From the NCBI GenBank assembly GCA_011364965.1, contig RDOB01000003.1, positions 472,524 through 536,523 on the forward strand: a stretch of DNA of 64,000 nucleotides, in the 5' to 3' direction. Positions 3,944 to 37,477 of the stretch are shown here, in pieces (the first letter of the stretch is position 1; the number at the start of each line of letters is the position of its first letter). This stretch comes from Candidatus Heimdallarchaeota archaeon (lineage in GTDB: Archaea > Asgardarchaeota > Heimdallarchaeia > Hodarchaeales > Hodarchaeaceae). A program made the position numbers and the translations under genes. The notes beneath the pieces are model-generated. The model was not told the origin of the DNA and made no database searches. It saw only the letters and a program-made list of their open reading frames with translations.

Positions 3944-6900
3944 TCAGAAGTTTTGTAAAGGAAGCTCAATTGTAACTGTTGTTCCTTTATCCAAACCTTC
4001 GCTAAAAATACTAATTTCACCACCATGGGCCTCGATAATAGTTTTGCAAAGATATAAACCAATCCCGGTACCCCTGACTGAATACTTCGTGGGAAAGGAA
4101 ACAAATGGATCAAATAGGCGTGAAATATGTTCATCTAAGATACCTGCTCCGTTATCACGGATATTTACCCGAATGTTCTGATTATGAATCTGACATTCTA
4201 CAACAACTCGACGATTATCTTTATCACTATGATGAACTGCATTTTCCATTAAATTGTTCAACACTTGAGACATCCTATCGACATCTATTTCTACTAAAGC
4301 AGGTCTATCAAAATCCTTTACTACTAGTTGTAGTTGTTTTCCTAATAAGGTTTGATATGGTTCCATCTGTTTTGTTATAAAACTCTTAAATTCTACAACA
4401 GAGGTATTTAAAATAAAGATTCCCCTCTCAATCTTAGTAATTTCGCTAACACCAGTAATTAAAGTCTCTAATCTATTAATATTCTTCTCAAGAACATCAA
4501 AAAGATGCTCACGTCTTCTTGGGGGTATTTCATCATATCGAGACTTGAAAATTTCATAATAACCTTTGATAATCGTCAGGGGTGTCCGTAGTTCGTGACT
4601 AGTCAACGCTATAAAGTCTGCACGACGATTCTCTAAATCATTTCTAGCTTCCTCGGCCAATTTTGCACTAGTGATGTCTGATATAATCCCTACGGTTCCA
4701 ATAAACTCATTGTTCTCATCTAAGAGTATTGAACCGGCAACCCGGGTTATAATTTGAGTTCCATCTTTTCTAATAAATCCTAGTTCATATGGAGTAACAT
4801 CTTCCATATTATGACGCATTTCATTAGCTCGATAAAGGATTGGCCTATATTCTTCAGTTATAAATTCATCAACTTTGTGTCCAACCATCTCAGTTTCAGA
4901 ATAACCAAGCATATGAATTATAGCAGGATTGACAAAGGTTGTAACTGAATTTTTATCACTAACCCAAATACCCTCAGTTAAAGTTACAAATAATCTTCTA
5001 AATCGTTCTTCAGATTCTTCAAGTTTTCTTTGAGAGATGATTTTTTCAGTAATATCTCGAAAAGCTGCTACAACTCGGTTTTTTTCGGCCTGAAATGCAT
5101 GTATTTCGAAAAATCCTTTGAAATAATCATCCTCATAATATAACTGATCAACACTCCATTTAGATCCGTACTTGGCAACCGCACGACTCATTCGAGGAAT
5201 TTGTGTTGAAACAAGGTTTGGGATAGCCTGTTCAATTGTCATGCCGACTAAAGTATTACAATCAAATCCTAGAATCTCATTTGCGGTCTGGTTTCCTCCT
5301 ATAAATAACAATTCATCGTTTTCTTTTAGCTCACAAAGAAACATGCCAAAGGGACTATAGTTAAAAATATTCCTAAATCTCTCTTCTGATCTTTTTAACT
5401 CTTCCTCAGCTTTTTTGCTCTCAGTAATATCTCTAAATGACACAGCCATTTGATTTGGTTGGGTTTGGAACGCTGTAACCGCATAAATCCCTTTTATCCC
5501 ATGAGAATCATATTTAAAACTATCGATAACCCATTTAGTTCCTGTTTTAGCTACTTTACGATACATAGAGGGAACTTCTGTTTCAATTAAACCTGGAAAC
5601 GCTTCTTCGATGGTTTTACCAATAAATTCTTGAGACTGTATACCCAAAATTTGATCAGTCATTTGATTTGCATTTTGGAAAATTAATGAATTATCTGCTT
5701 CCAACTCATATAAAATCATAGCATTAGGATTGGACTCGAATATATTTCTAAAACGTTGTTCAGAGATCTTCAAATCCCTCTCTGCTTGTTTACGAAGAGT
5801 AATATCTTCACCAGAACTTAATGTACCTATGATCTCACCAAATTCGTTTCTAATAACGGTATTATGCCATGCAATGCATCTCAGCTTGCCTGATTTCGTC
5901 TTAACAATATTTTCAACATATTCAACAGCTGTGAACTCCCCTTTCATCAATTTATGAAAAACATCTTGTATTTGGCTGATGTTATCATCTGGGAGAAAAT
6001 TTTCAAACCAATTCATCCCTATGATCTCATCTTCTAAATATTCTAAGACTTCACAACCTTTGTTGTTAATCAAGGAAATATTCATATTTTTATCAATAGC
6101 TATCAATATTACTCCAGCAATATCAAGATATGTTTGAGCTCGATCTCTTTCTATCCTCAAGCGTTGTTCTAGTAATTTCCTATCTGTTATATTCAACGCA
6201 GTAAACGTAACACCTTTAGAAGGATCTGTAGGATCTATAGGAGTGGATCTTAAATCTATTTCTATGATTGTGCCATCTTTTCTTCTGAAAAAAGTATCAA
6301 TAACTCCAGTTCCATATTTGGCAATATCCGCATATTTTTCTCTCCCTATTCTTTGATATTCTTCATCTGAAGGATATAAAATCCTTGCATTTTTTCCAAT
6401 TAATTCCTCTTCTTTATACCGCAGCATTTGCATTAACGTTTTACTTAAATATGTTAGATTTCGGTTTTCATCAACTAAACCTATCCCTATTGGTGCCACT
6501 CTTAGGATGCTCTCATATTTTGCTTGACTTTCTTGTAATAACTGTTGAGTTTGCTTTAGATCTGAAATATCGACAATAGAAAGAATTACAAAGGACCAAT
6601 CATCTTTGAATTCGCTAGGCATGGTGGCACGATAAAAAATGCTGATTTCTTTTCCATCTAATGTCTTAGTTTTGCCTTCTGCTTCAAAAAAATCTTCCCC
6701 GGCAAAAAAAGCTGCAATTCCTTTTTCAAAATCACCCAAAAAATCTTCCAGTGCAAGAATTAGGTATTTATTGAGTAATTCTTCTTTGGAAAGAGCATTG
6801 AATAGTTTAAGACTGGATTCATTTATATCTAGCACTTTAATCAATTTAAGGAGATCAGAGATAGATGAAAATCTTGGATGAATCTGATCACTAAATTGGA

Positions 6901-9900
6901 TACCCTCAATAACAATTTTCAATTCTGATAGATCGATTAGCCAAGTGGAAATTGGGGCATTATCAAATAACTTTTTAAATTTAATTTCACTTTCTTTTAT
7001 TGATTCCTCAGTTTCTTTTAGCTTCGTAATATCGACATGATTTATTAATACTCGAGAAAGAGTCTCCTCGTGGCCAGGAACAACAATTACCTTGGTTAGA
7101 AGATATCGCCTTTTCCCATCGATTTTAGAGATGTGGGGAAATTCAATTACTGTCTTACCTGTAAGAAGCTGTAGATAATTATTTGCTGCAATTAAATTCT
7201 CTTGATTTTGTCTTATGTCCCAAGTTTTATATCTAAGTTCTCGGAATTCCTTCAAGTCATTAACATTGTAAAGTTCCAAGGTAGCACTGTTCAAATCCGT
7301 GTCCTTGACTAATTTAGCAACTTCTATAGCCTTTTGAGGATTATTCTTGAAAAAAACAGCTATATCTTCGACTCCTCGCTCCTTTAACTGGTTTATATAT
7401 GCTAAAGCCTCAGAAAAGTCTAATTCTCGCATAGGAATAGGCGTAGTTTCAAATAAATTACGATATCTTGATTCACTTCGTTCAAGTAACTCTATTGCTC
7501 TCTTTTTTTCAGTAATGTCGATAAATGCTAACATATTGGCTGGTTTTGCATTATATTGAATAGATCGGGAATAAATATCAAGCCATATAACAGCTTCAGC
7601 TTTTGTGATCATTCTAATTTGGTAATTGGTAACTGCACCAAACTGACCTAAATGGATCTTTTTTAAGCCAAAATCACGATCATCGGGATGGATGGAAGAT
7701 TCAAACTTATTGTTAATGATTTTATCGAGCGAATAACCAAAAGTGTCAGCAACGGTCTGATTTGCGTAAATTATCCTTTCATCTTGTATGATACAGATTC
7801 CTAAAACTGATTGTTCGGATAATATCCGAAATTTCTCCTCGCTTTCTTTTAGCTGCTTTTCAAATTCAGAGGCTTGAGTAATATCAAATATAGTTGCAAC
7901 AATTGACTTAATTTGCTTTTGTTCATCAAATATTGGGGTTGCATTGATAGAAAGTAGTCTTCTTTCACCTGTAGCTAATTCGATTGCATGTTTCACATCC
8001 CTTACAGGTTTTTTGCTTTCTAGTACCTTAGCAACGGGTAATTCTTCTTCAGGAAAAACTCCCCCGTTAATACTAGTTATTATCCATAGAGGATCGTTAT
8101 ATGTTCTCTCAGTAATCTGGTTTTTTGTAAGACCAAGTACTGTTTCGGCATATTTATTAGCAAAACTAATTTTTCCATCTGGATTGATGGTCACGATGCC
8201 AATAGGACTCATTTCCATAACATTTTCTAGAAATGATGTCTGTTGCTGGAGCTTAAGCTCCGTTTTCTTCATCTCGGTGATGTCTCTGGTTATACTACCT
8301 ATCATAAAGCCTTTTTCTGATTTTATTGGAAATGGGATCTGTTGAAGGTGCTTTATCTCCTCATCTTTTGTTTTAATTTTAATCTCCAAGATAGTGTTTA
8401 ACCATTCAGCATTTCCTTCTCTCAATGCCATAACGACTGACTGCTTGAGAGAATCCTTCCTCTGAGCAAATAAAATTGGATCAACAGATAATTTTGAATT
8501 TAGATCCCAATAATAATGGCCTAAAGAATCCTTTTTAGAATAACCAGTAATTCTCTCTTGACCTCTATTCCATTCAATTATTTTCCCATCTGTGTCTATT
8601 AAAGCTATTCCATCATATGATTGATTTATTATTGACATCAGTCTATTTTTAGTTTCAACGAGTTCTAATTCAGCTGTTTTTAATTCCGTAATATCTCTGG
8701 TAATACTGCCAATAAGACGGTCTTTACTGGTTTTAATGAAAAATGGAGTTTGTTCAATATATTTAATTTCTCCACTTCGTAAATAAATTGTTGAGGTAAA
8801 AGATTTACTCAACCACGGTGCTCTTTCTATACTAAAAGCTTGTAAAATGCGTTCTTTTGACTTTTCTAGATGCTCCCTACTTCTTAAGTTTGGGTCTCTG
8901 ATTTGATGTTGAATATCCCAAAATTTTTCACCTAAAACTTCTTCACGATTGTATTCAAAAATCTGCTCACTTGCGTGATTCCACTCATTAATGTTACCCG
9001 TAGTATCAATTAAGACAAGCCCGTCGCTTAATTGCTCAATGATAGAACGATATTTCTCTTCACGATCGATCAGCTCTTGTTCGAACCTTTTTTGGTTTGT
9101 AATATCCCTAATTATACTGCCAATCATGAAACTATTCTCAGTTGGGATTAGGAATGGTGAATCTTGAAGAATCTGAAATTCTCCATTTAAAGCTTTTATT
9201 GTGTATTCATGAACTGAATCAAACCAACTTCCTTTCCCTTCTCTCAAAAGTTCTTTTGTCATTCGTTCCATTACGAGCTCTATCTGGGATATTGAGCTCG
9301 TTTCAGGAACTAATGCAGCCTGAACAGTCCAAGAATATTTATATATGGCATCTTTTTGTAAGATCCCAGTTATTCGTTCCATTGCTGGATTCCATTCCCT
9401 GATTCTACCTTCTTGATCAATAAGAATAATCCCATCAGATGATTGATTTACAATGGAAGATAATCGGTTCTTGACCTCTCTGAGCTCCTGCTCGGCTTTT
9501 CTTCTTTCTGTGATATCTAAAACCGACACAATAACCTTTGAGAGAGATTCCTCATAACCAGGGACTACTGAAAGCTTAATAGAAGAAATTATTGATTTTC
9601 CAGTAAGCATTATCCCTGTAAACTCGGCTTCATATTCTGTTTTTCCCTCACTTAAATTTAATATCTCCTCTTTAAATGAATGGTATGCAGACTCATCAAA
9701 TATTTGATTTAGTCCTTTAAGTAATTTTTCTTTATTATCTGCACCATAGAGATCCAAGCTGATGTTATTAACATCAATAACTTTAACAAGAGAGGCTAAA
9801 TTCCGAAGTTCTTCAGGATTATTGTCTAAGAATGAACTTATGTTAGATGTTTTTCCTTTAAGCTCATCTAAATATTCTTTGGCTGCAGAAAAATCTTCCT

Positions 9901-10324
9901 CCCAAATGGAAATAGGGGCGTTCTCAAATAAAGTTTGATAGCGTGTCTCCGTTTCATGAACATTTTGATTCGTGGTTTCTTCAATAATAATCGCAAACTG
10001 ACTATCAATACTTATAAGTTGAAGCGATAACCAGATTTGTGATTCTCCTTTCTGAAATTTAAATTCTTTCTTAAATTCGGTTAAATCGACCGAAGAAATG
10101 TCTTGATCTGGAAATATTAGTGCAAGGGGATGTTTATTTACTAAATCATTGCTTGTAAATCCTAGAATCTCAAGAAATTTTTGATTAAAATAAGAAACTA
10201 AGCCTAGGATAGGATCATATAATAAAATGCCAATATTAAGGGAATCAACGAGTCTTTTAAGGTTTGTTAATCTTTTCTCTAAAAGAGAACATTTTTCTTG
10301 CAGTTGTTGGATCTGTTGTTCCAT
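3944..10324 (-). CDS. Giant soluble sensor histidine kinase with ~14 PAS domains
   Basis: A single uninterrupted 2126-residue frame. It holds about fourteen PAS domains in series, most ending in the DIT(E/D)-type PAC motif (e.g. RDITELK, FDITQAS, VDISDLK). The C-terminal 230 residues are a HisKA/HATPase_c core: H-box SHELRTPL (phospho-His near 1910), N-box near 2023 (LNNLMENAVHHS), G1 DNGAG near 2060 and G2 GTGIGL near 2087. No transmembrane segment or receiver domain is present, so it is a cytoplasmic orphan kinase. PAS 3-5 are close to each other, as are PAS 12-13, and PAS 2, 8 and 9 share a longer variant (APISxW start), showing growth by internal duplication. Ligands and partner are unknown; no response regulator lies nearby. 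Confidence 0.95.
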   Translation of the reverse strand: MEQQIQQLQEKCSLLEKRLTNLKRLVDSLNIGILLYDPILGLVSYFNQKFLEILGFTSNDLVNKHPLALIFPDQDISSVDLTEFKKEFKFQKGESQIWLSLQLISIDSQFAIIIEETTNQNVHETETRYQTLFENAPISIWEEDFSAAKEYLDELKGKTSNISSFLDNNPEELRNLASLVKVIDVNNISLDLYGADNKEKLLKGLNQIFDESAYHSFKEEILNLSEGKTEYEAEFTGIMLTGKSIISSIKLSVVPGYEESLSKVIVSVLDITERRKAEQELREVKNRLSSIVNQSSDGIILIDQEGRIREWNPAMERITGILQKDAIYKYSWTVQAALVPETSSISQIELVMERMTKELLREGKGSWFDSVHEYTIKALNGEFQILQDSPFLIPTENSFMIGSIIRDITNQKRFEQELIDREEKYRSIIEQLSDGLVLIDTTGNINEWNHASEQIFEYNREEVLGEKFWDIQHQIRDPNLRSREHLEKSKERILQAFSIERAPWLSKSFTSTIYLRSGEIKYIEQTPFFIKTSKDRLIGSITRDITELKTAELELVETKNRLMSIINQSYDGIALIDTDGKIIEWNRGQERITGYSKKDSLGHYYWDLNSKLSVDPILFAQRKDSLKQSVVMALREGNAEWLNTILEIKIKTKDEEIKHLQQIPFPIKSEKGFMIGSITRDITEMKKTELKLQQQTSFLENVMEMSPIGIVTINPDGKISFANKYAETVLGLTKNQITERTYNDPLWIITSINGGVFPEEELPVAKVLESKKPVRDVKHAIELATGERRLLSINATPIFDEQKQIKSIVATIFDITQASEFEKQLKESEEKFRILSEQSVLGICIIQDERIIYANQTVADTFGYSLDKIINNKFESSIHPDDRDFGLKKIHLGQFGAVTNYQIRMITKAEAVIWLDIYSRSIQYNAKPANMLAFIDITEKKRAIELLERSESRYRNLFETTPIPMRELDFSEALAYINQLKERGVEDIAVFFKNNPQKAIEVAKLVKDTDLNSATLELYNVNDLKEFRELRYKTWDIRQNQENLIAANNYLQLLTGKTVIEFPHISKIDGKRRYLLTKVIVVPGHEETLSRVLINHVDITKLKETEESIKESEIKFKKLFDNAPISTWLIDLSELKIVIEGIQFSDQIHPRFSSISDLLKLIKVLDINESSLKLFNALSKEELLNKYLILALEDFLGDFEKGIAAFFAGEDFFEAEGKTKTLDGKEISIFYRATMPSEFKDDWSFVILSIVDISDLKQTQQLLQESQAKYESILRVAPIGIGLVDENRNLTYLSKTLMQMLRYKEEELIGKNARILYPSDEEYQRIGREKYADIAKYGTGVIDTFFRRKDGTIIEIDLRSTPIDPTDPSKGVTFTALNITDRKLLEQRLRIERDRAQTYLDIAGVILIAIDKNMNISLINNKGCEVLEYLEDEIIGMNWFENFLPDDNISQIQDVFHKLMKGEFTAVEYVENIVKTKSGKLRCIAWHNTVIRNEFGEIIGTLSSGEDITLRKQAERDLKISEQRFRNIFESNPNAMILYELEADNSLIFQNANQMTDQILGIQSQEFIGKTIEEAFPGLIETEVPSMYRKVAKTGTKWVIDSFKYDSHGIKGIYAVTAFQTQPNQMAVSFRDITESKKAEEELKRSEERFRNIFNYSPFGMFLCELKENDELLFIGGNQTANEILGFDCNTLVGMTIEQAIPNLVSTQIPRMSRAVAKYGSKWSVDQLYYEDDYFKGFFEIHAFQAEKNRVVAAFRDITEKIISQRKLEESEERFRRLFVTLTEGIWVSDKNSVTTFVNPAIIHMLGYSETEMVGHKVDEFITEEYRPILYRANEMRHNMEDVTPYELGFIRKDGTQIITRVAGSILLDENNEFIGTVGIISDITSAKLAEEARNDLENRRADFIALTSHELRTPLTIIKGYYEIFKSRYDEIPPRRREHLFDVLEKNINRLETLITGVSEITKIERGIFILNTSVVEFKSFITKQMEPYQTLLGKQLQLVVKDFDRPALVEIDVDRMSQVLNNLMENAVHHSDKDNRRVVVECQIHNQNIRVNIRDNGAGILDEHISRLFDPFVSFPTKYSVRGTGIGLYLCKTIIEAHGGEISIFSEGLDKGTTVTIELPLQNF

Positions 10325-29789: not shown

Positions 29790-31100
29790 ATGAATTCAAC
29801 AAACCAAAGCGATGATATAACAAATTACAAAATTCAACTAGAAACAATTTCATCTTTCAGCACACCAATAGAATGCTATGCATTAACGATCGGAAAAATC
29901 ACCAAAGATATTCCTCAACTAGTATTGAGCTGTTATAAAGATAATTTGCTTGTAATGAACCCAGATGGGAATCTAGCGACGGAATTAGAATGGTCAACAA
30001 ATTTTACATGTGTAACAATTGGTAAACTAGCGAGTTCAAAGAATATCATCTCTGGAAGTCTCGATGGCACCGTTAGAGTTATGAATTCGCGGGGAGCTCT
30101 CATCTGGACGAAAGATCTAGGTCTGAACGCTCCAATCAAAAATATAACAATAGGAAATATGAATGGGACTGAAAGTTCACAATTGCTAGTTGCAACTGGG
30201 GAAATCAACGTTGCTATACTGCTAGATAAATCTGGAGAAATACTTTGGAAAAAACAAATGGAAAATCGTATTGTTGGGTCAGATATTGGAGTTATTCTCC
30301 CAAATGGAAACCCAATGGCTTTAATTTTCGAAGCAAATGGCACTTTAAATTTAATTAATCTTGAGGGTGAAATTGTAGAGAGGTATAATTTCAATAATAA
30401 AGTTGCAAATGGTTTACTAATGTCCTATGGGAATTTGAAATTTATAATTACTACCGAAAAGGAAAATATTTCATTCTGGAAAATAACAGATAAACTTAAC
30501 CTACTCTTTTCTACTAAATGGAAGGGAAGGATTAGGAAAATCTATGCAAGCAAAATTTTTGATTCGGAAAATGATTGTTTAGCAATTATGACCAAGAATG
30601 GAGAAATTTCTATTTCAAGAGTCATAGTAACTCGTTATGACGAAGATAGGAAGGCTTTTAATGCAATTCAATACTTTGATCCTGGCGTAAGTCTAGAAAA
30701 ATTACGATCAATCATATTAGACCTATTAAAGAGTTTTGGAGTGGCCGGTATCCCGATTAATAGAATTCATCAGTCCTATATTGAGAGAACGAAAAGTTTA
30801 GTAAGTTATCAGGAGTTCTACAAAGATCTACTTGCCATACAATCCAGTGGAAAACTTGGCGGACGTATTGACACTTCAGGAACCCCAGATACTGAATCTG
30901 ATGATATATTGATAATTAATACTGATAAGTTCTTTTGTATGGCCTGCAATGGTCAATATTCAGTGTTATCTCGTCACTCTCAATGCGACCAATGCTTAAG
31001 ATTCCTCTGTGAAGAATGCTACTCCGCTCGTGAGGCTGTTGGGTTTATCGAATGTCCTTATTGTCAAGCTTCAGCTTCTCACTTTCGTAAAATCACTTAA
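29790..31100 (+). CDS. Beta-propeller protein with C-terminal RING-like zinc finger
   Basis: 436 residues. Residues ~15-285 are blade-like repeats (e.g. NLLVMNPDGNLATELEW, GTVRVMNSRGALIWTKDL, NVAILLDKSGEILWKKQM) similar to PQQ/WD-type propellers. Residues ~295-375 are helical and may form a small winged-helix or hinge. The last 55 residues hold eight cysteines, C383-x2-C386-x12-C399-x2-C402-x4-C407-x2-C410-x11-C422-x2-C425, the spacing of a C4C4 RING or related treble-clef finger. There is no signal peptide or membrane segment. A ubiquitin-ligase-like or scaffold role is possible, but no ubiquitin, E1 or E2 gene lies in the window. Confidence 0.7.
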   Translation: MNSTNQSDDITNYKIQLETISSFSTPIECYALTIGKITKDIPQLVLSCYKDNLLVMNPDGNLATELEWSTNFTCVTIGKLASSKNIISGSLDGTVRVMNSRGALIWTKDLGLNAPIKNITIGNMNGTESSQLLVATGEINVAILLDKSGEILWKKQMENRIVGSDIGVILPNGNPMALIFEANGTLNLINLEGEIVERYNFNNKVANGLLMSYGNLKFIITTEKENISFWKITDKLNLLFSTKWKGRIRKIYASKIFDSENDCLAIMTKNGEISISRVIVTRYDEDRKAFNAIQYFDPGVSLEKLRSIILDLLKSFGVAGIPINRIHQSYIERTKSLVSYQEFYKDLLAIQSSGKLGGRIDTSGTPDTESDDILIINTDKFFCMACNGQYSVLSRHSQCDQCLRFLCEECYSAREAVGFIECPYCQASASHFRKIT

Positions 31101-31149: not shown

Positions 31150-32637
31150 TTAATCTTCCCAGAATGAATCATCTAACTTTGAAGATTCTTTCTTGGCATC
31201 TTCCTGAAGAACATTCAACATACTCTTAAAGGCACGTGTTAAATCTCCCACTTCATCATCCTTATTTTCAAGTTCACTGTCGATTTGTAAATCTAAATCG
31301 GATAAGAGATCTTCCCGTATTGTATCGGTCGCCATTTTAGAAGCTATTGTAGTTAAGTGGTTGATAGGTTCAATAATCCTAGCAGACAACCATGTACCAA
31401 TACTGAGTGAAAGAAAGGCAGCAAAACCTATAGTTATAATTACTTGAATTATAGTAGTCAAGGTTGCAGCCTGAATTCGGCTTTGAAGAGGAGAAACTGA
31501 AGCTAGAGCTTCTTCCTCTGGTACAATTATCAAACAAATGTAATCCCCTTTTCCAACTGAATTGAAGGCGAGATAAAATGTTTTCCCATTTCGAGTGTAT
31601 TCTATGACTCCCGAGGAATCTCCAGAGGTTATTACGGTAATTTGATATTCTGTAATTGCTGGTTGACCGTTAATATTGACTTCAACCTCATCAAGAGTTG
31701 GTAAATCATCGTTAGGATTTACCGCGGTCCATTCTGGATGCGCGATAACCGTTCCAGATTGTTGAATTAACACAGCATATCCTGTATCTAGTATCTGAAT
31801 GTTAATGATCTTTTCCTTGATACTTTCAATTGTGATATCTGCAAAGATACATCCCAACAAGACACTAGTAGATGGATGGTATATGGCCTTTCCTATAGTA
31901 ATTAGTAATGCTCCATCTATAGGATCGAAATAAGGTGCAGTAAAGACGATATCTCCATTTCCTTGTCTTACTTCTGAATACCAATCCTCTTGAGTAGCGT
32001 AAAAAGGGTCTGATACTCGTTCCTGATCAGTTCCTCCTACCACACTCCCAGGATAATTTATAAAGAGATCAGATGTCTCAAAAGCGATGTATAGCCAACG
32101 GATTTCTGGAGCATTCAAATGGATGCTCTGAAAGATGTAATCCATATGAGCCATTCGTTGGATTGTATCATTTAAACTGGGATCAGCCTCAAGGAGAGTA
32201 AGATAGTTGGAAGAATCAGATCCTGGAAAATAATAACTAGCGTAACTCCAAGAAAGATACACATCATAAAGTGAGTCCAAATAGGTGTCATTAGGATAGA
32301 GTTCTAATCCTCGATCATATTCAAAGAAATAGTCGTAAAATACGGTTCTGTTTGTGTACCGAGAATCCAGGTGGAATAGATTCTCACATTCTTCAGCCAT
32401 AGCGTTAACATAAGCCTCTGCACTACTTAATTTTTGGTTTACAATGAGAGAATTTTGGATTGCTGTTTGTTCAATATTCTCTTGAATTTGGGTACTCAAT
32501 GCATCAGTGCTCATAGAGGTTGTTGTTTGGCCTACAAATCCTACAAATAAGGTACTGATTGAACCAATCAATATTAAAGAAACGAGACTGAAAATAACAA
32601 AACTAATGATTATATTTTGTTTTATACTTCTTGCCAT
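31150..32637 (-). CDS. Membrane receptor: dCache sensor plus HAMP, no output domain
   Basis: 495 residues. An N-terminal membrane helix (about 10-32), a ~340-residue extracytoplasmic double-Cache domain (WLYIAFETSDLFINYPG, QEDWYSEVRQGNGDIVFTAPYFD, GCIFADITIESIKEKI, GYAVLIQQSGTVIAHP), a second helix (about 392-416) and a HAMP domain (ARIIEPINHLTTIASKMA). It ends ~50 residues later with an acidic tail. Chemoreceptor signalling and kinase domains are absent. It starts 11 bp after the stop of the dCache-TPR-VWA gene, so the two are one operon and probably a hetero-complex. Confidence 0.88.
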   Translation of the reverse strand: MARSIKQNIIISFVIFSLVSLILIGSISTLFVGFVGQTTTSMSTDALSTQIQENIEQTAIQNSLIVNQKLSSAEAYVNAMAEECENLFHLDSRYTNRTVFYDYFFEYDRGLELYPNDTYLDSLYDVYLSWSYASYYFPGSDSSNYLTLLEADPSLNDTIQRMAHMDYIFQSIHLNAPEIRWLYIAFETSDLFINYPGSVVGGTDQERVSDPFYATQEDWYSEVRQGNGDIVFTAPYFDPIDGALLITIGKAIYHPSTSVLLGCIFADITIESIKEKIINIQILDTGYAVLIQQSGTVIAHPEWTAVNPNDDLPTLDEVEVNINGQPAITEYQITVITSGDSSGVIEYTRNGKTFYLAFNSVGKGDYICLIIVPEEEALASVSPLQSRIQAATLTTIIQVIITIGFAAFLSLSIGTWLSARIIEPINHLTTIASKMATDTIREDLLSDLDLQIDSELENKDDEVGDLTRAFKSMLNVLQEDAKKESSKLDDSFWED

Positions 32638-32648
32638 CTTAATTCCTC

Positions 32649-35399
32649 CTATACATCCAATACATCAAACCCTTCGACATCGACTTCTCCCATAACTTCT
32701 CTTATTTCTTTGAAAGCATTATCTATTGCCGTACTAATAGAAATACTAGGATCAGAAACGTCTATATACCGGCCACGAGGGGTCATGTCGCAGAGCTCAC
32801 GAAGTTTAGGTGCTAGTGCCTTCACTTCTGATCCCACACCTACAATGACTATATTAATAGTCAAAAGATTCTCGTCAATAAAATCAGGTATTGATTGTGC
32901 CATTATTCTAGTGAAGATATCAGGTATAAGACTAGACCGTCTTTTTCGCTCAAGTGAAAATCTATGACTTTTATTATCTTCGCCATCAGTTAATGCTATG
33001 AGCCACTTCTGTTCGTTGCCTTTTTCGTTATTTAAAAAGATTAACGCGTCTCCCAACGCATCATAAAATGCAGTCATACCATCAGGATATTTTAAACTTG
33101 AAATTGTTTTGAGAATTGTGCTTTCTCGGTTACGTACATCCCCTAGTGGCAACAATGTTTTAGATTCTGAGGAAAAAATAACAAGGCCAACTTTATCTTG
33201 AGGATTAATTTGATCTTGGAACAATTTTCTGGTTCCTTTTACAACAGATCTAATCTTAGAACCATCCATCGAACCAGAATAATCTAAAACAAATAAAGCC
33301 ATTTTTGGCATAATCAACTTTTTCCTAATATTCGCTGCAGAAACTTTTGCTCGGTGACTCTCTGTAGAACGATCTAATTCATCATACGTTGAGGCCATAC
33401 GATCAAGGCATTTTAAAGCAATATTTACATCATCCACTGATTTAGCTAAGTCAAATGATTTTTGAAGAAGTTTTAATCCTTCTTCGTGTTTGGCCTGTAC
33501 AATATGGAAAATTGCATATTTCAAATAACTGTGAGCAAGTCCACGTGTTTCATTATTCTTTTCCGCAAGATGAATAGCCTCTTTATATTCCCTCTCTGCT
33601 TTATCAAAGTCCCCTAAACGTTCATGGATTATCCCAAGGTTACCAATTCGAGTGATTAAACCTTTAGTATTATTGATTTCCTCATCATAAGCTTTTGCTC
33701 TTTCCAAAAGCTGCAAACTCATTTGATAAGCTTCACGGTCGAGATACAATAGGCCAAGATTATTAAGGCGAGAAGCTAAGCCTTTCTTGTCTCCTTGTTT
33801 CTCACCAATATCAATAGCTTCCTGATAATGTTCCCGAGCCCTGTTAAAATCATTCCAAGCTCGATAGATGTTGCCAAGGTTATTTTTCGCTATGGCTATT
33901 CCTCGTTCGTTTTTCGTGGTTGTAAAGAGGGTGAGGGCTTTTTGGTAGTTTTGGTATGCGCGTTTAAGATCACCTCTATAATAGTCTGTATTTCCAAAAC
34001 GTAGAGATGTTAATAGATTATCAAATGCTGAATGCAATGTTGCTACTTCCTTCCCCATACTTCGTGGATTCCCACGTAAATCTCTTGATAAATCGCCTTC
34101 TGCTATAAAATTTACCATGCTAGTAAGTTCTTTAACAGGTTGTACAATTTTATTTGACATATATGAACCTGCTACAACGACTCCTATGATTACTACCGAT
34201 AAAGCTAAGATAAATACCATCGTTTGTTGAATAGCTAGATTATTAATCGTATTTCTAATAGCTATGGCTGATGCAATTATATCTTGTTCTGGTACGACAA
34301 TACCCAAAGAATATCCAGTTGTATTAATTGGAATGTAGGAAATATACCATGTTTTGCCCATCTTAGCGTAAGGTTCCGTCACAATTTGACCAGAAATCAT
34401 TTTTGGTAAAATATTGGATTCAAAGGAAGTTTTTTCGGTAACTGATTGGCCAAATTCCAACTCTCCGAGAGTTGGGACTTCTTCAGCTTCGGGATCGGCT
34501 TCAGGGTGGGAAATAACATTTCCCTGTGAATCAATCATAAAAGCATACCCATTATCCAGAACTTCCACTCCTAAAATAGCATCATTAATAACATCAATTG
34601 TAATATCTGCACTCACAACTCCAATCAAAGATCCGTTGGAAAAGTGGGAAGGCCGGCCTATTGACATCAATAATCCTGCAGGATCCCAATAAGGGGAAGT
34701 AAATGCTGTAGAATCATCATCCAAGCTTGCTGCGTTCGTATACCATTCTTCTGCATGAGGATCGTAATCAAATCCCGTTGTTTCATAAAAATCTATACAC
34801 CATGACATACTATCATAAGGATAGTTCTTAAATAAGTGCCCATCTCCTTCAAAACCGGCATAAAGCCATACATAATTGCGATTTGCTTTGTGCAAAGATC
34901 TAAACATATTATCCATATTTGATGCGCTGTTTAGTATTTCCTGCATTTGAGAACTAAGATCGAAGGGATCATTCCCTCTCATATGCTCCTTGGGGAGATA
35001 ATAACAGCTAACATCAAATGAGATGTAAGATTCATAATCCGAATCATAAGCTAGTCCAGGAACGTTATATCCTGTTTCTGCAAATTCTAAAGCAGAATCC
35101 CAATAATAAGAATGACCAGGAGTGATATTCACTTCCCCATTAAAGAGCGATTCAGTATATCGATCCAGCATTTTGATTTCTGATTCATACTGTTTGAATG
35201 TTTCATCAATGAAAAGAGCTTCATCTGATGCAATACGCTCAAGATTTGCAATGGAATCAGCTCTAAGGGCATCACTTGAATCTTGAGAATTTTCCTGTGA
35301 TAATAATAAAATCTGAGTACCGCTAAGTAATGCCAGAAAAATTACGGGAACAACTAATAATGTCATAAATACAACTAAAATTTTTCTCTGAAGGTTCAA
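32649..35399 (-). CDS. Membrane receptor with dCache, HAMP, TPR and von Willebrand A domains
   Basis: 916 residues. TM1 ~7-28; extracytoplasmic dCache ~30-385 (VWLYAGFEGDGHLFKNYP, AEEWYTNAASLDDDSTAFTS, GVVSADITIDVIND); TM2 ~392-412; HAMP ~413-465 (NKIVQPVKELTSMVNFIAEG); about six 40-residue TPRs ~470-690 (NNLGNIYRAWNDFNRAREHY, NNLGLLYLDREAYQMSLQLL and so on); and a VWA domain 697-905. The metal site is complete: DYSGS (706-710), T776 in DGMTAF and TDGED (804-808). The likely output is cation-dependent protein binding in the cytoplasm, controlled by an external ligand. The downstream partner carries the same sensor without output. I know no characterised protein with this order. Confidence 0.88.
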   Translation of the reverse strand: MNLQRKILVVFMTLLVVPVIFLALLSGTQILLLSQENSQDSSDALRADSIANLERIASDEALFIDETFKQYESEIKMLDRYTESLFNGEVNITPGHSYYWDSALEFAETGYNVPGLAYDSDYESYISFDVSCYYLPKEHMRGNDPFDLSSQMQEILNSASNMDNMFRSLHKANRNYVWLYAGFEGDGHLFKNYPYDSMSWCIDFYETTGFDYDPHAEEWYTNAASLDDDSTAFTSPYWDPAGLLMSIGRPSHFSNGSLIGVVSADITIDVINDAILGVEVLDNGYAFMIDSQGNVISHPEADPEAEEVPTLGELEFGQSVTEKTSFESNILPKMISGQIVTEPYAKMGKTWYISYIPINTTGYSLGIVVPEQDIIASAIAIRNTINNLAIQQTMVFILALSVVIIGVVVAGSYMSNKIVQPVKELTSMVNFIAEGDLSRDLRGNPRSMGKEVATLHSAFDNLLTSLRFGNTDYYRGDLKRAYQNYQKALTLFTTTKNERGIAIAKNNLGNIYRAWNDFNRAREHYQEAIDIGEKQGDKKGLASRLNNLGLLYLDREAYQMSLQLLERAKAYDEEINNTKGLITRIGNLGIIHERLGDFDKAEREYKEAIHLAEKNNETRGLAHSYLKYAIFHIVQAKHEEGLKLLQKSFDLAKSVDDVNIALKCLDRMASTYDELDRSTESHRAKVSAANIRKKLIMPKMALFVLDYSGSMDGSKIRSVVKGTRKLFQDQINPQDKVGLVIFSSESKTLLPLGDVRNRESTILKTISSLKYPDGMTAFYDALGDALIFLNNEKGNEQKWLIALTDGEDNKSHRFSLERKRRSSLIPDIFTRIMAQSIPDFIDENLLTINIVIVGVGSEVKALAPKLRELCDMTPRGRYIDVSDPSISISTAIDNAFKEIREVMGEVDVEGFDVLDV

Positions 35400-35569
35400 A
35401 TTTGTATCAACCTCTCGTAGACCAAAAACTATTGGTGAAATTCAGCTCAAACCAGAAGTAGTTTATCTTTTAAATGCTCCTAATGACGAACCTGTAGAGA
35501 ACTTCTACAATGTTACAGCTTATATATTATGCAAATATAAGGTAAGAAAAAGAAGAGGCAATCCCTTCA

Positions 35570-37477
35570 ATGAAATCTACCGAATGGACTATTAATGACT
35601 CTCAGAACGTCTATGGAATAGGAAAAACTTTTCGGGAGTTTAATTTCCTAGAAATTAATTCCCAGGGAGAATTATGCTTGAGAATTAAAGACGAAATAAT
35701 TTCATTCAAAGAAATTCTATCCCGTCTTCATAAACAAATCACATGGACGGATATTGATCAATGTCCTTCATTAACCCTACGGATACCACAGCTGGTTGAA
35801 TATCAAATTGCCAAACTAAACCAATCTTTTTCAAAAGCACTCAATGAGTATAATTATAAAGGAGAGTTCACTGCTGTTTATCCTATTAAAGTAAATCAGC
35901 AGAAACATGCCATTAATTCGGTATTAAAAAGCAAATTTATAAAATATGGACTTGAAGTGGGAACAAAAGCTGAATTTCTTATAACCCTAAGAGCCCTTAA
36001 AGACCATACTGATAGATATTTAGTTTGCAATGGGGTAAAGGATTTAGAATATTTAGGATTAGCTATTAAAAAGCTTCAGGAAGGGTGGAATGTCCTCATA
36101 TCGGTTGAAACCTTTAGAGAATTGAAAACTCTTCTCAATTTAACTACAGATCCATCAATCTTGAAATTGAGCTTGCGATTAAAACCCTATTTTTCTGTGA
36201 GTGGACACTGGGCGCACTCATCAGGAAGGGACTCGAAATTTGGATTGTCTATCGGTGAATTAACAGAAGTTTTAACTTACCTAGAGGAAACTAATAATAA
36301 AAATATCGTTGTGGCTCTTCATGCTCATATTGGGTCTCAGATTACATCTCTTGAAGACTTCAAATTTTTAGCCCAATATCTCACTATATTGTATAAGGAA
36401 TTTAGAAATAAAGGGTTACATAATCTTCACATATTAGACTTTGGTGGAGGGCTTTCAATAGATTATGAAGGAAGAATTACCGACAAAAATCCAGACACCT
36501 TTGATACTTATGCGAAGCATATAGTTGAAGGGATTGTAACAACAATAGATGATTTTGATCACCCTGATATCATGATTGAAACAGGTAGGGCTATTACTGC
36601 TCTTTCATCCATTGTACTTGCTCAAATTCTTGAAATAAAAGATATTTTCCCAGAAGGAAAGATTAAGGATGAGGAAAAGGCTTTTGTTGAAGAATGGAAA
36701 AAGAGAATTCAAAAAATTACTACAGTAGATGAATTCCGAACCACGTGGTTTGAGTTATTAGGTTATGATGCTAAAAAGAATTCATCTTTAAGAACTACTT
36801 CCGAGTTATTTCATCATGAAATCCTAGTGAGCAAAATTCGTAGGCTATTTCGAAAAGAATTGGGAAAGGAGTTCTATCTGAAGACCCTACAACAATTCAT
36901 AAGCGACCCAAGCCTTAATCTGCTTTTTACTCAAGCAGAGAAATATGCTCTTTGTAATTTCTCTGTCTTTAATAGCGCTTGTGATCATATTCTAGTTAAG
37001 CAATATTTTCCTATTTTTCCAATAGAATTTCTTGATAAACAACCAGAAACTATAGTTAGAATTGTAGATATTACTTGTGACTCTGATGGCGAGATATCCC
37101 AATTTATCACCAAAAGAACAGATACTCACCCTAAATTTACCCTTGATCATTACCCGCTCCAAATTCCAGTCCCTGTAACACTGAAAGGAATCCCCGTTCC
37201 CAATTGTGATGGTTTGAATGAATCTTATTTTGCAATTGGACTTTTAGGAGCTTATCAGGATATTATAGAATTCGATCATAATCTTCTAGGTGATCTTCCA
37301 GACGCATTAATTCAGTTAGATGGAGATGATTGGAAAATTGAATGGTCTTCAGACCCTGAAAGTCCACAAAAATTAATTACAAAAATGGGATACAAAGGAG
37401 ATGAAATTTTCCCAAATATGGGAAAAATGTCTTATGCAAAGGACTCGTGGAACAGAAAGGAGAATAATACTGATTAA
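35570..37477 (+). CDS. speA: Biosynthetic arginine decarboxylase (PLP-dependent, SpeA type)
   Basis: 635 residues, full length for the family. The N-terminal PLP barrel shows FTAVYPIKVNQQ with the Schiff-base Lys K107, GLEVGTKAEFLI, YLVCNGVKD, and HAHIGSQI for the cofactor His. The C-terminal part has DITCDSDGEISQF with the catalytic Cys near 503. It converts arginine to agmatine, the first step of polyamine synthesis. Most archaea instead use a pyruvoyl arginine decarboxylase, so this bacterial-type gene hints at transfer. No agmatinase lies beside it. A TATA-like TATATATTAT lies ~45 bp before the ATG, preceded by the inverted repeat GTAGA-N5-TCTAC (35494-35508). Confidence 0.93.
   Translation: MKSTEWTINDSQNVYGIGKTFREFNFLEINSQGELCLRIKDEIISFKEILSRLHKQITWTDIDQCPSLTLRIPQLVEYQIAKLNQSFSKALNEYNYKGEFTAVYPIKVNQQKHAINSVLKSKFIKYGLEVGTKAEFLITLRALKDHTDRYLVCNGVKDLEYLGLAIKKLQEGWNVLISVETFRELKTLLNLTTDPSILKLSLRLKPYFSVSGHWAHSSGRDSKFGLSIGELTEVLTYLEETNNKNIVVALHAHIGSQITSLEDFKFLAQYLTILYKEFRNKGLHNLHILDFGGGLSIDYEGRITDKNPDTFDTYAKHIVEGIVTTIDDFDHPDIMIETGRAITALSSIVLAQILEIKDIFPEGKIKDEEKAFVEEWKKRIQKITTVDEFRTTWFELLGYDAKKNSSLRTTSELFHHEILVSKIRRLFRKELGKEFYLKTLQQFISDPSLNLLFTQAEKYALCNFSVFNSACDHILVKQYFPIFPIEFLDKQPETIVRIVDITCDSDGEISQFITKRTDTHPKFTLDHYPLQIPVPVTLKGIPVPNCDGLNESYFAIGLLGAYQDIIEFDHNLLGDLPDALIQLDGDDWKIEWSSDPESPQKLITKMGYKGDEIFPNMGKMSYAKDSWNRKENNTD

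Follow-up and report, generated by a model that had tools for sequence, protein, structure and literature searches.

Introduction

Receptors with an extracellular dCache sensor followed by a HAMP domain usually pass their signals to kinases, phosphatases, nucleotide cyclases or chemotaxis arrays. Here we describe a two-gene receptor locus from Candidatus Heimdallarchaeota archaeon, an Asgard archaeon, for which dCache_1-HAMP chemoreceptors and histidine kinases (such as PctA, Mlp24, McpB and M. mazei 3LI8/3LIB) rank among the best matches by structure and by profile. The locus lies in a window of 64,000 nucleotides, which is the whole stretch of DNA that was analyzed (assembly GCA_011364965.1, contig RDOB01000003.1, positions 472,524 to 536,523 of the forward strand). 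Its two proteins share with the described receptors the topology of two transmembrane (TM) segments, the extracellular dCache_1 sensor and the HAMP domain. In contrast to those receptors, the pair lacks methyl-accepting chemotaxis protein (MCP), HisKA and HATPase domains, has a TPR-VWA output and includes a second subunit that has no output at all.

Two other groups of proteins are relevant for comparison. Like the dCache sensors of polyamines and other amines (TlpQ, McpU, dCache_1AM; PMC6234866, PMC10104139), the pair lacks the carboxylate-binding arginine and mostly keeps the tyrosine and aspartate positions for a primary amine, a likeness in which the amine motif was compared in part and the ligand is inferred. 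The CaV alpha2-delta and CACHD1 proteins also combine VWA with dCache_1, and the metal ion-dependent adhesion site (MIDAS) is intact in alpha2-delta-1 and -2. An earlier note on this DNA, made from the sequence alone, had drawn the comparison with alpha2-delta, which fails for the pair: the alpha2-delta VWA sits as an insertion within the extracellular dCache (PMC9901441), whereas that of the pair is cytoplasmic and C-terminal to HAMP and TPR. We propose, at a probability of about one half, that the products of the two genes form a heteromeric receptor, which may sense amines and whose TPR-VWA arm in the cytoplasm captures another protein, probably a beta-propeller protein encoded beside the pair.

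Results

Two sensors, one output

The receptor pair comprises the following features, given in window coordinates.

32649..35399, minus strand: long receptor, 916 amino acids (aa), TM-dCache_1-TM-HAMP-TPR-VWA (open reading frame (ORF), Pfam, 36-sequence alignment, AlphaFold)
34275..35318, minus strand: extracellular dCache sensor of the long receptor, about residues 28-375 (Pfam dCache_1, PctB alignment)
33999..34166, minus strand: HAMP of the long receptor, about residues 412-467, leading into a conserved LRFGN junction (L102 homology, junction invariants)
33315..33989, minus strand: TPR solenoid of the long receptor, about residues 471-695 (Pfam TPR_12, regular helix pairs in the model)
32730..33305, minus strand: VWA of the long receptor, about residues 699-890 (Pfam VWA, invariant MIDAS residues)
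33284-33270, 33074-33072 and 32990-32976, minus strand: MIDAS elements DYSGS, T776 and TDGED of the long receptor
32638..32648, minus strand: 11-bp spacer between the long and short genes (sequence, comparison of spacers at 53 loci)
31150..32637, minus strand: short receptor, 495 aa, TM-dCache_1-TM-HAMP, without an output domain (ORF, Pfam, alignment)

Both receptors matched dCache_1 (PF02743; 7.7e-17 and 6.5e-20, 62.1 and 72.1 bits, cut-off 45). Pfam also assigned HAMP (PF00672) in the short receptor (3.7e-6; 27.6 bits, cut-off 25) and TPR_12 (3.5e-25) and VWA (2e-13) in the long one, of which the HAMP domain falls outside the Pfam matches listed and was assigned by alignment to the relative L102 (37.5 bits, cut-off 25). 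The MIDAS residues D706, S708, S710, T776 and D805 are identical in all 36 aligned long-receptor sequences, as are the nearby G806, D808, N809 and S811. With its DxSxS motif, threonine and aspartate in place, the VWA domain is predicted to bind metal. The long gene starts at a TTG codon, and a Shine-Dalgarno-like TAGGAGG (GGAGG core) overlaps its stop codon. These results bear out what the earlier note had described, namely an outside sensor and HAMP in both proteins, TPR repeats and a VWA with a complete metal site in one, an end just after HAMP in the other and a gap of 11 bp between the genes.

Among the Pfam matches listed, neither receptor contains an MCPsignal, HisKA, HATPase_c or cyclase domain, and ordinary outputs occur in same-genome controls (L157, dCache-HAMP-MCP; L158, a dCache histidine kinase). 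The earlier note had proposed a signaling route without phosphorylation, which is unproven for the pathway as a whole. Nearly all relatives of the short receptor also stop just after HAMP, except for fused zinc tails in L040 and L087/L088. In the last two (L087:2700-4655, plus strand; L088:10110-11858, plus strand), which belong to f11, a family with no strong propeller match, a zinc ribbon follows HAMP, and Pfam also detected HEAT repeats in L087.

The pairing is constant in many Asgard genomes

When an alignment of the HAMP-TPR junction was used as the query, 67 of 228 Asgard genomes gave matches at E <= 1e-7. Two of them (G008, G122) gave weak matches only and were taken to hold other HAMP proteins, leaving the long-receptor junction in approximately 65 genomes of nine families (f1, f3, f4, f11, f17-f20 and f28); absence counts are soft, because many of the remaining Asgard genomes are incomplete. 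These figures rest on Asgard genomes; the survey reached bacteria and other archaea only to a limited extent. A contig scan returned only two close relatives, the closest named being Candidatus Hodarchaeum mangrovi and Heimdallarchaeota bin272, and the matches from a tblastn search of plasmids, to proteins with TPR or CHAT annotations, were all partial and in no case covered 80% of the query. We found no published description of the pair in open-licence PubMed Central, which is weak evidence of novelty, as preprints and most subscription journals lie outside its reach.

At every locus with both genes readable, the short gene followed the long one on the same strand (53/53, a set that includes several closely related species and does not represent 53 independent events). 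The two genes were separated by at most 16 bp or overlapped slightly in nearly all of these loci. The outliers were L101, with a gap of 397 bp and a long ORF without a detected VWA, and L118 and L126, with overlaps of 89 bp and 26 bp that are probably due to start-codon choice. The short receptors that were checked and had no long partner lay at contig ends, apart from a rearranged cluster in G214. The earlier note had stated that its interpretation would fall if the TPR-VWA part were a fusion unique to this assembly or if the pair never co-occurred in relatives. The first is ruled out by the same architecture in many Asgard genomes, and the constant pairing disposes of the second, with the short protein as the steady partner that the note had envisaged.

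The two receptors lost their sensors together in one clade

Trees of the cytoplasmic part of the long receptor and of the short receptor shared 21 of 31 splits, and their distances were correlated (r = 0.80; 0.89 for the HAMP part). This agreement supports joint evolution, with a contribution from the common history of the species. At four loci (L094, L102, L103 and L104), dCache is missing from both proteins, and the long and short receptors are reduced to approximately 575 and 150 aa; they retain two TM segments and HAMP ahead of any output. These loci cluster in both trees, and we therefore consider one joint loss of dCache probable, rather than several. A polytopic membrane protein of 244-251 aa is encoded 33-67 bp upstream of the dCache-less pairs.

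L102:4760-5494, plus strand: polytopic membrane protein
L094:8358-9110, minus strand: polytopic membrane protein
L104:8385-9122, minus strand: polytopic membrane protein
L103:2313-3068, minus strand: polytopic membrane protein

Strong matches to this protein (E < 1e-100) were found in exactly five genomes, all with the dCache-less type of pair. Hydropathy predicts six segments, and Pfam gave no match. It is possible that the polytopic protein is a replacement sensor acting in trans, and the input module may be swappable, with one clade having dropped both dCache domains and having a separate membrane protein gene in front. Pairs of the sensory rhodopsin-HtrII type offer a comparison for this clade, in which two-TM-HAMP subunits likewise sit beside a polytopic membrane protein gene; unlike in those pairs, the polytopic protein here has no Pfam match, and the likeness is in gene arrangement alone.

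HAMP proteins are often homodimeric, and the short receptor has a complete sensor and HAMP with no output, both of which would suit an arrangement in which the long receptor is a homodimer and the short one forms homodimers of its own, binding ligand without signaling as a decoy or modulator. We consider this arrangement improbable, because the close translational linkage in a constant order and the loss of dCache from both proteins fit a shared complex better, and a decoy without a sensor would be purposeless. The joint loss of both sensors also makes the idea of two subunits in one receptor testable.

A pocket substitution beside an arginine decarboxylase

On the other side of the long receptor lie the following features.

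35570..37477, plus strand: SpeA-type biosynthetic arginine decarboxylase, encoded divergently from the pair (NCBIfam NF003763, neighborhoods)
35400..35569, no strand: intergenic region of 170 bp that separates the divergent long-receptor and decarboxylase genes (ORF coordinates)

The decarboxylase scored 385.5 bits against NF003763 (cut-off 369). A gene of this type adjoins the pair in four families; it is divergent from the pair in f1 and lies immediately downstream of it in f3, f4 and f28. In an alignment made via PctB, E217 of the long receptor falls on the position of R126 in PctA, the arginine that grips the ligand carboxylate, and a position table places E217 of the short receptor there as well. 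Both receptors thereby depart from the dCache_1AA motif (R126, an aromatic residue and an aspartate), with the other tested positions compatible. Across the decarboxylase-linked loci, arginine was found at this position in none of 19 long and none of 21 short receptors, and an acidic residue in 13/19 and 21/21, respectively. The full amino-acid motif is kept in both proteins of L089, L092 and L093, and other residues occupy the R126 position in L090, L096 and L097; none of these six loci has a decarboxylase neighbor.

The positions Y144/D146/D173 are mostly retained and were equated by alignment with Y208/D210/D239, through which TlpQ binds its ligand at the primary amine (PMC6234866). TlpQ E170 was dropped as a candidate equivalent of the R126 position, as the numbering gives it no support. 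For the dCache_1AM motif, defined by the PctD set W155, F188, Y189, M215, S217, D235 and R103, the common aromatic and final aspartate positions are present; the R103/D133 insertion and M215/S217 were not mapped. Because the arginine that would hold a carboxylate is lost, usually with an acidic residue in its place, we consider a cationic amine (putrescine, agmatine or another polyamine) the probable ligand of the decarboxylase-linked branch. As judged from sequence, the altered pocket fits such a ligand better than an amino acid, and we favor an amine. The pocket change and the linked decarboxylase together provide a directly testable ligand prediction.

Many ligand classes are bound by dCache domains, and the residues found at the six loci without a decarboxylase, as well as the non-acidic residues at the R126 position of f3 and f4 long receptors, would also be in line with a heteromeric receptor for non-amine ligands, in which the ligand is specific to each branch and the decarboxylase adjoins the pair by chance or as a housekeeping gene. 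Set against this possibility, which we regard as rather unlikely, are the absence of arginine at the key position from every decarboxylase-linked locus and the adjacency of the decarboxylase in four families and in differing orientations, which suggests repeated or retained linkage.

A beta-propeller protein is a third recurrent component

29790..31100, plus strand: beta-propeller protein, 436 aa, with C-terminal helical (winged-helix-like) and FYVE/RING-like zinc parts (Pfam, neighborhoods, AlphaFold)

The propeller gene adjoins the pair in six families (f1, f17-f20 and f28), and strong propeller matches in those families (E < 1e-40) are located at the receptor clusters with few exceptions; two propeller genes (G111, G085) have no neighboring pair. 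The zinc-binding and helical C-terminal parts vary between families. In L040, which has no propeller neighbor, the zinc tail fused to the short receptor matches that of the window propeller (E = 5e-14 in a single comparison). The AlphaFold model of the propeller protein (pLDDT 84, pTM 0.69) and profile searches placed ITFG2 of KICSTOR and the BBSome propellers nearest among solved structures, and these matches are weak (approximately 13% identity, TM-scores of 0.45-0.5 to ITFG2). Propellers are ubiquitous, and a relationship with KICSTOR or the BBSome was rejected as resting on weak, generic matches and is kept as a lead. A zinc motif, SRHxxCxQCxRxxC, occurs in similar form at the end of the window propeller (29790-31100, plus strand) and at the start of an LRR protein (L055:10262-11746, plus strand) that sits beside alpha2-delta-like genes.

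Prokaryotic VWA proteins are often partnered with MoxR ATPases. The genome encodes several AAA_3 proteins, and the TPR-VWA arm could in principle be a scaffold for an AAA+ chaperone of the MoxR type, with the propeller incidental. A MoxR-VWA system would have an adjacent AAA+ gene, which this locus lacks: all six AAA_3 matches of the genome are on other contigs. In addition, six families have the propeller next to the pair. Both points make a MoxR scaffold the least probable of the alternatives, very unlikely in our estimation.

Discussion

In the heteromeric receptor that we propose, the two genes would encode two subunits of one transmembrane receptor, each contributing an extracellular dCache and a HAMP domain; because HAMP domains work as dimers, we infer that the long and short proteins pair with each other. 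Ligand, a cationic amine in the decarboxylase-linked branch, would bind outside and shift HAMP, and the helix that runs from HAMP into the TPR solenoid would reposition the TPR-VWA arm. The intact MIDAS would then bind or release a cytoplasmic protein via a divalent cation, for which the adjoining beta-propeller/zinc protein is the best candidate. The output of the receptor may include control of amine metabolism. Of this scheme, the domain architecture, the constant pairing and gene order, the conserved MIDAS, the linkage to propeller and decarboxylase genes and the pocket substitution are observed, and the heteromer, the ligand, the contact between VWA and propeller and the output are proposed. 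The earlier note had suggested that an external ligand controls a VWA-mediated assembly, and its core, a sensor outside the cell that acts on a VWA arm in the cytoplasm, is supported. Overall, that interpretation stands in part; it had missed the propeller/zinc protein, the linked decarboxylase and the charge change in the pocket.

Several observations weigh against the reading of an amine-sensing heteromer that captures the propeller. Common species history accounts for part of the correlation between long and short receptor distances. In its AlphaFold model, the long receptor displays the dCache, a long TM-HAMP helix, the TPR solenoid and the VWA (pLDDT 83), with a pTM of 0.47 that makes domain placement uncertain. 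Pocket residue and decarboxylase are incompletely associated, because the R126 position is also acidic at some loci without a decarboxylase neighbor (L095, L098) and is mostly Y, Q, F or S in the long receptors of f3 and f4. The comparison with the published amine motif covers part of its positions, and the neighborhood would fit the decarboxylase as target, as ligand source or as merely co-located. Finally, clusters of f3, f4 and f11 have no adjoining propeller and no strong match elsewhere in those genomes, which indicates that the propeller is not the only partner; an AbrB/MazE-type protein in f3 and a small RING-type protein in f4 are encoded nearby.

A broader proposition, which we advance tentatively and at less than even odds, is that the pair represents a distinct class of Asgard signaling: a non-enzymatic, two-subunit dCache-HAMP receptor in which ligand controls cation-dependent capture of the propeller by VWA, integrin-like in principle. 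If true, a protein-capture domain would be a new output class for these conserved receptors, in the archaeal group closest to eukaryotes.

Additional genes in the window and related genomes

Related Asgard genomes encode, as different genes, alpha2-delta-like proteins (L055:7042-10085, plus strand; L056; L161:1857-5578, plus strand). Insertion of VWA in dCache was seen in L055 and L161; in L055, the VWA follows directly after the dCache RxWY motif (YDPRTRPWY...DISGSM), and a second dCache-type protein is encoded alongside. Near the receptor cluster of an f28 genome lies a histone-deacetylase-family gene (L116:4806-5894, minus strand), the only member classified; other f28 loci have similar-looking genes at the same place. 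Elsewhere in the window, a 2126-aa ORF (3944-10324, minus strand) overlaps a HATPase_c match and is probably a large sensor kinase.

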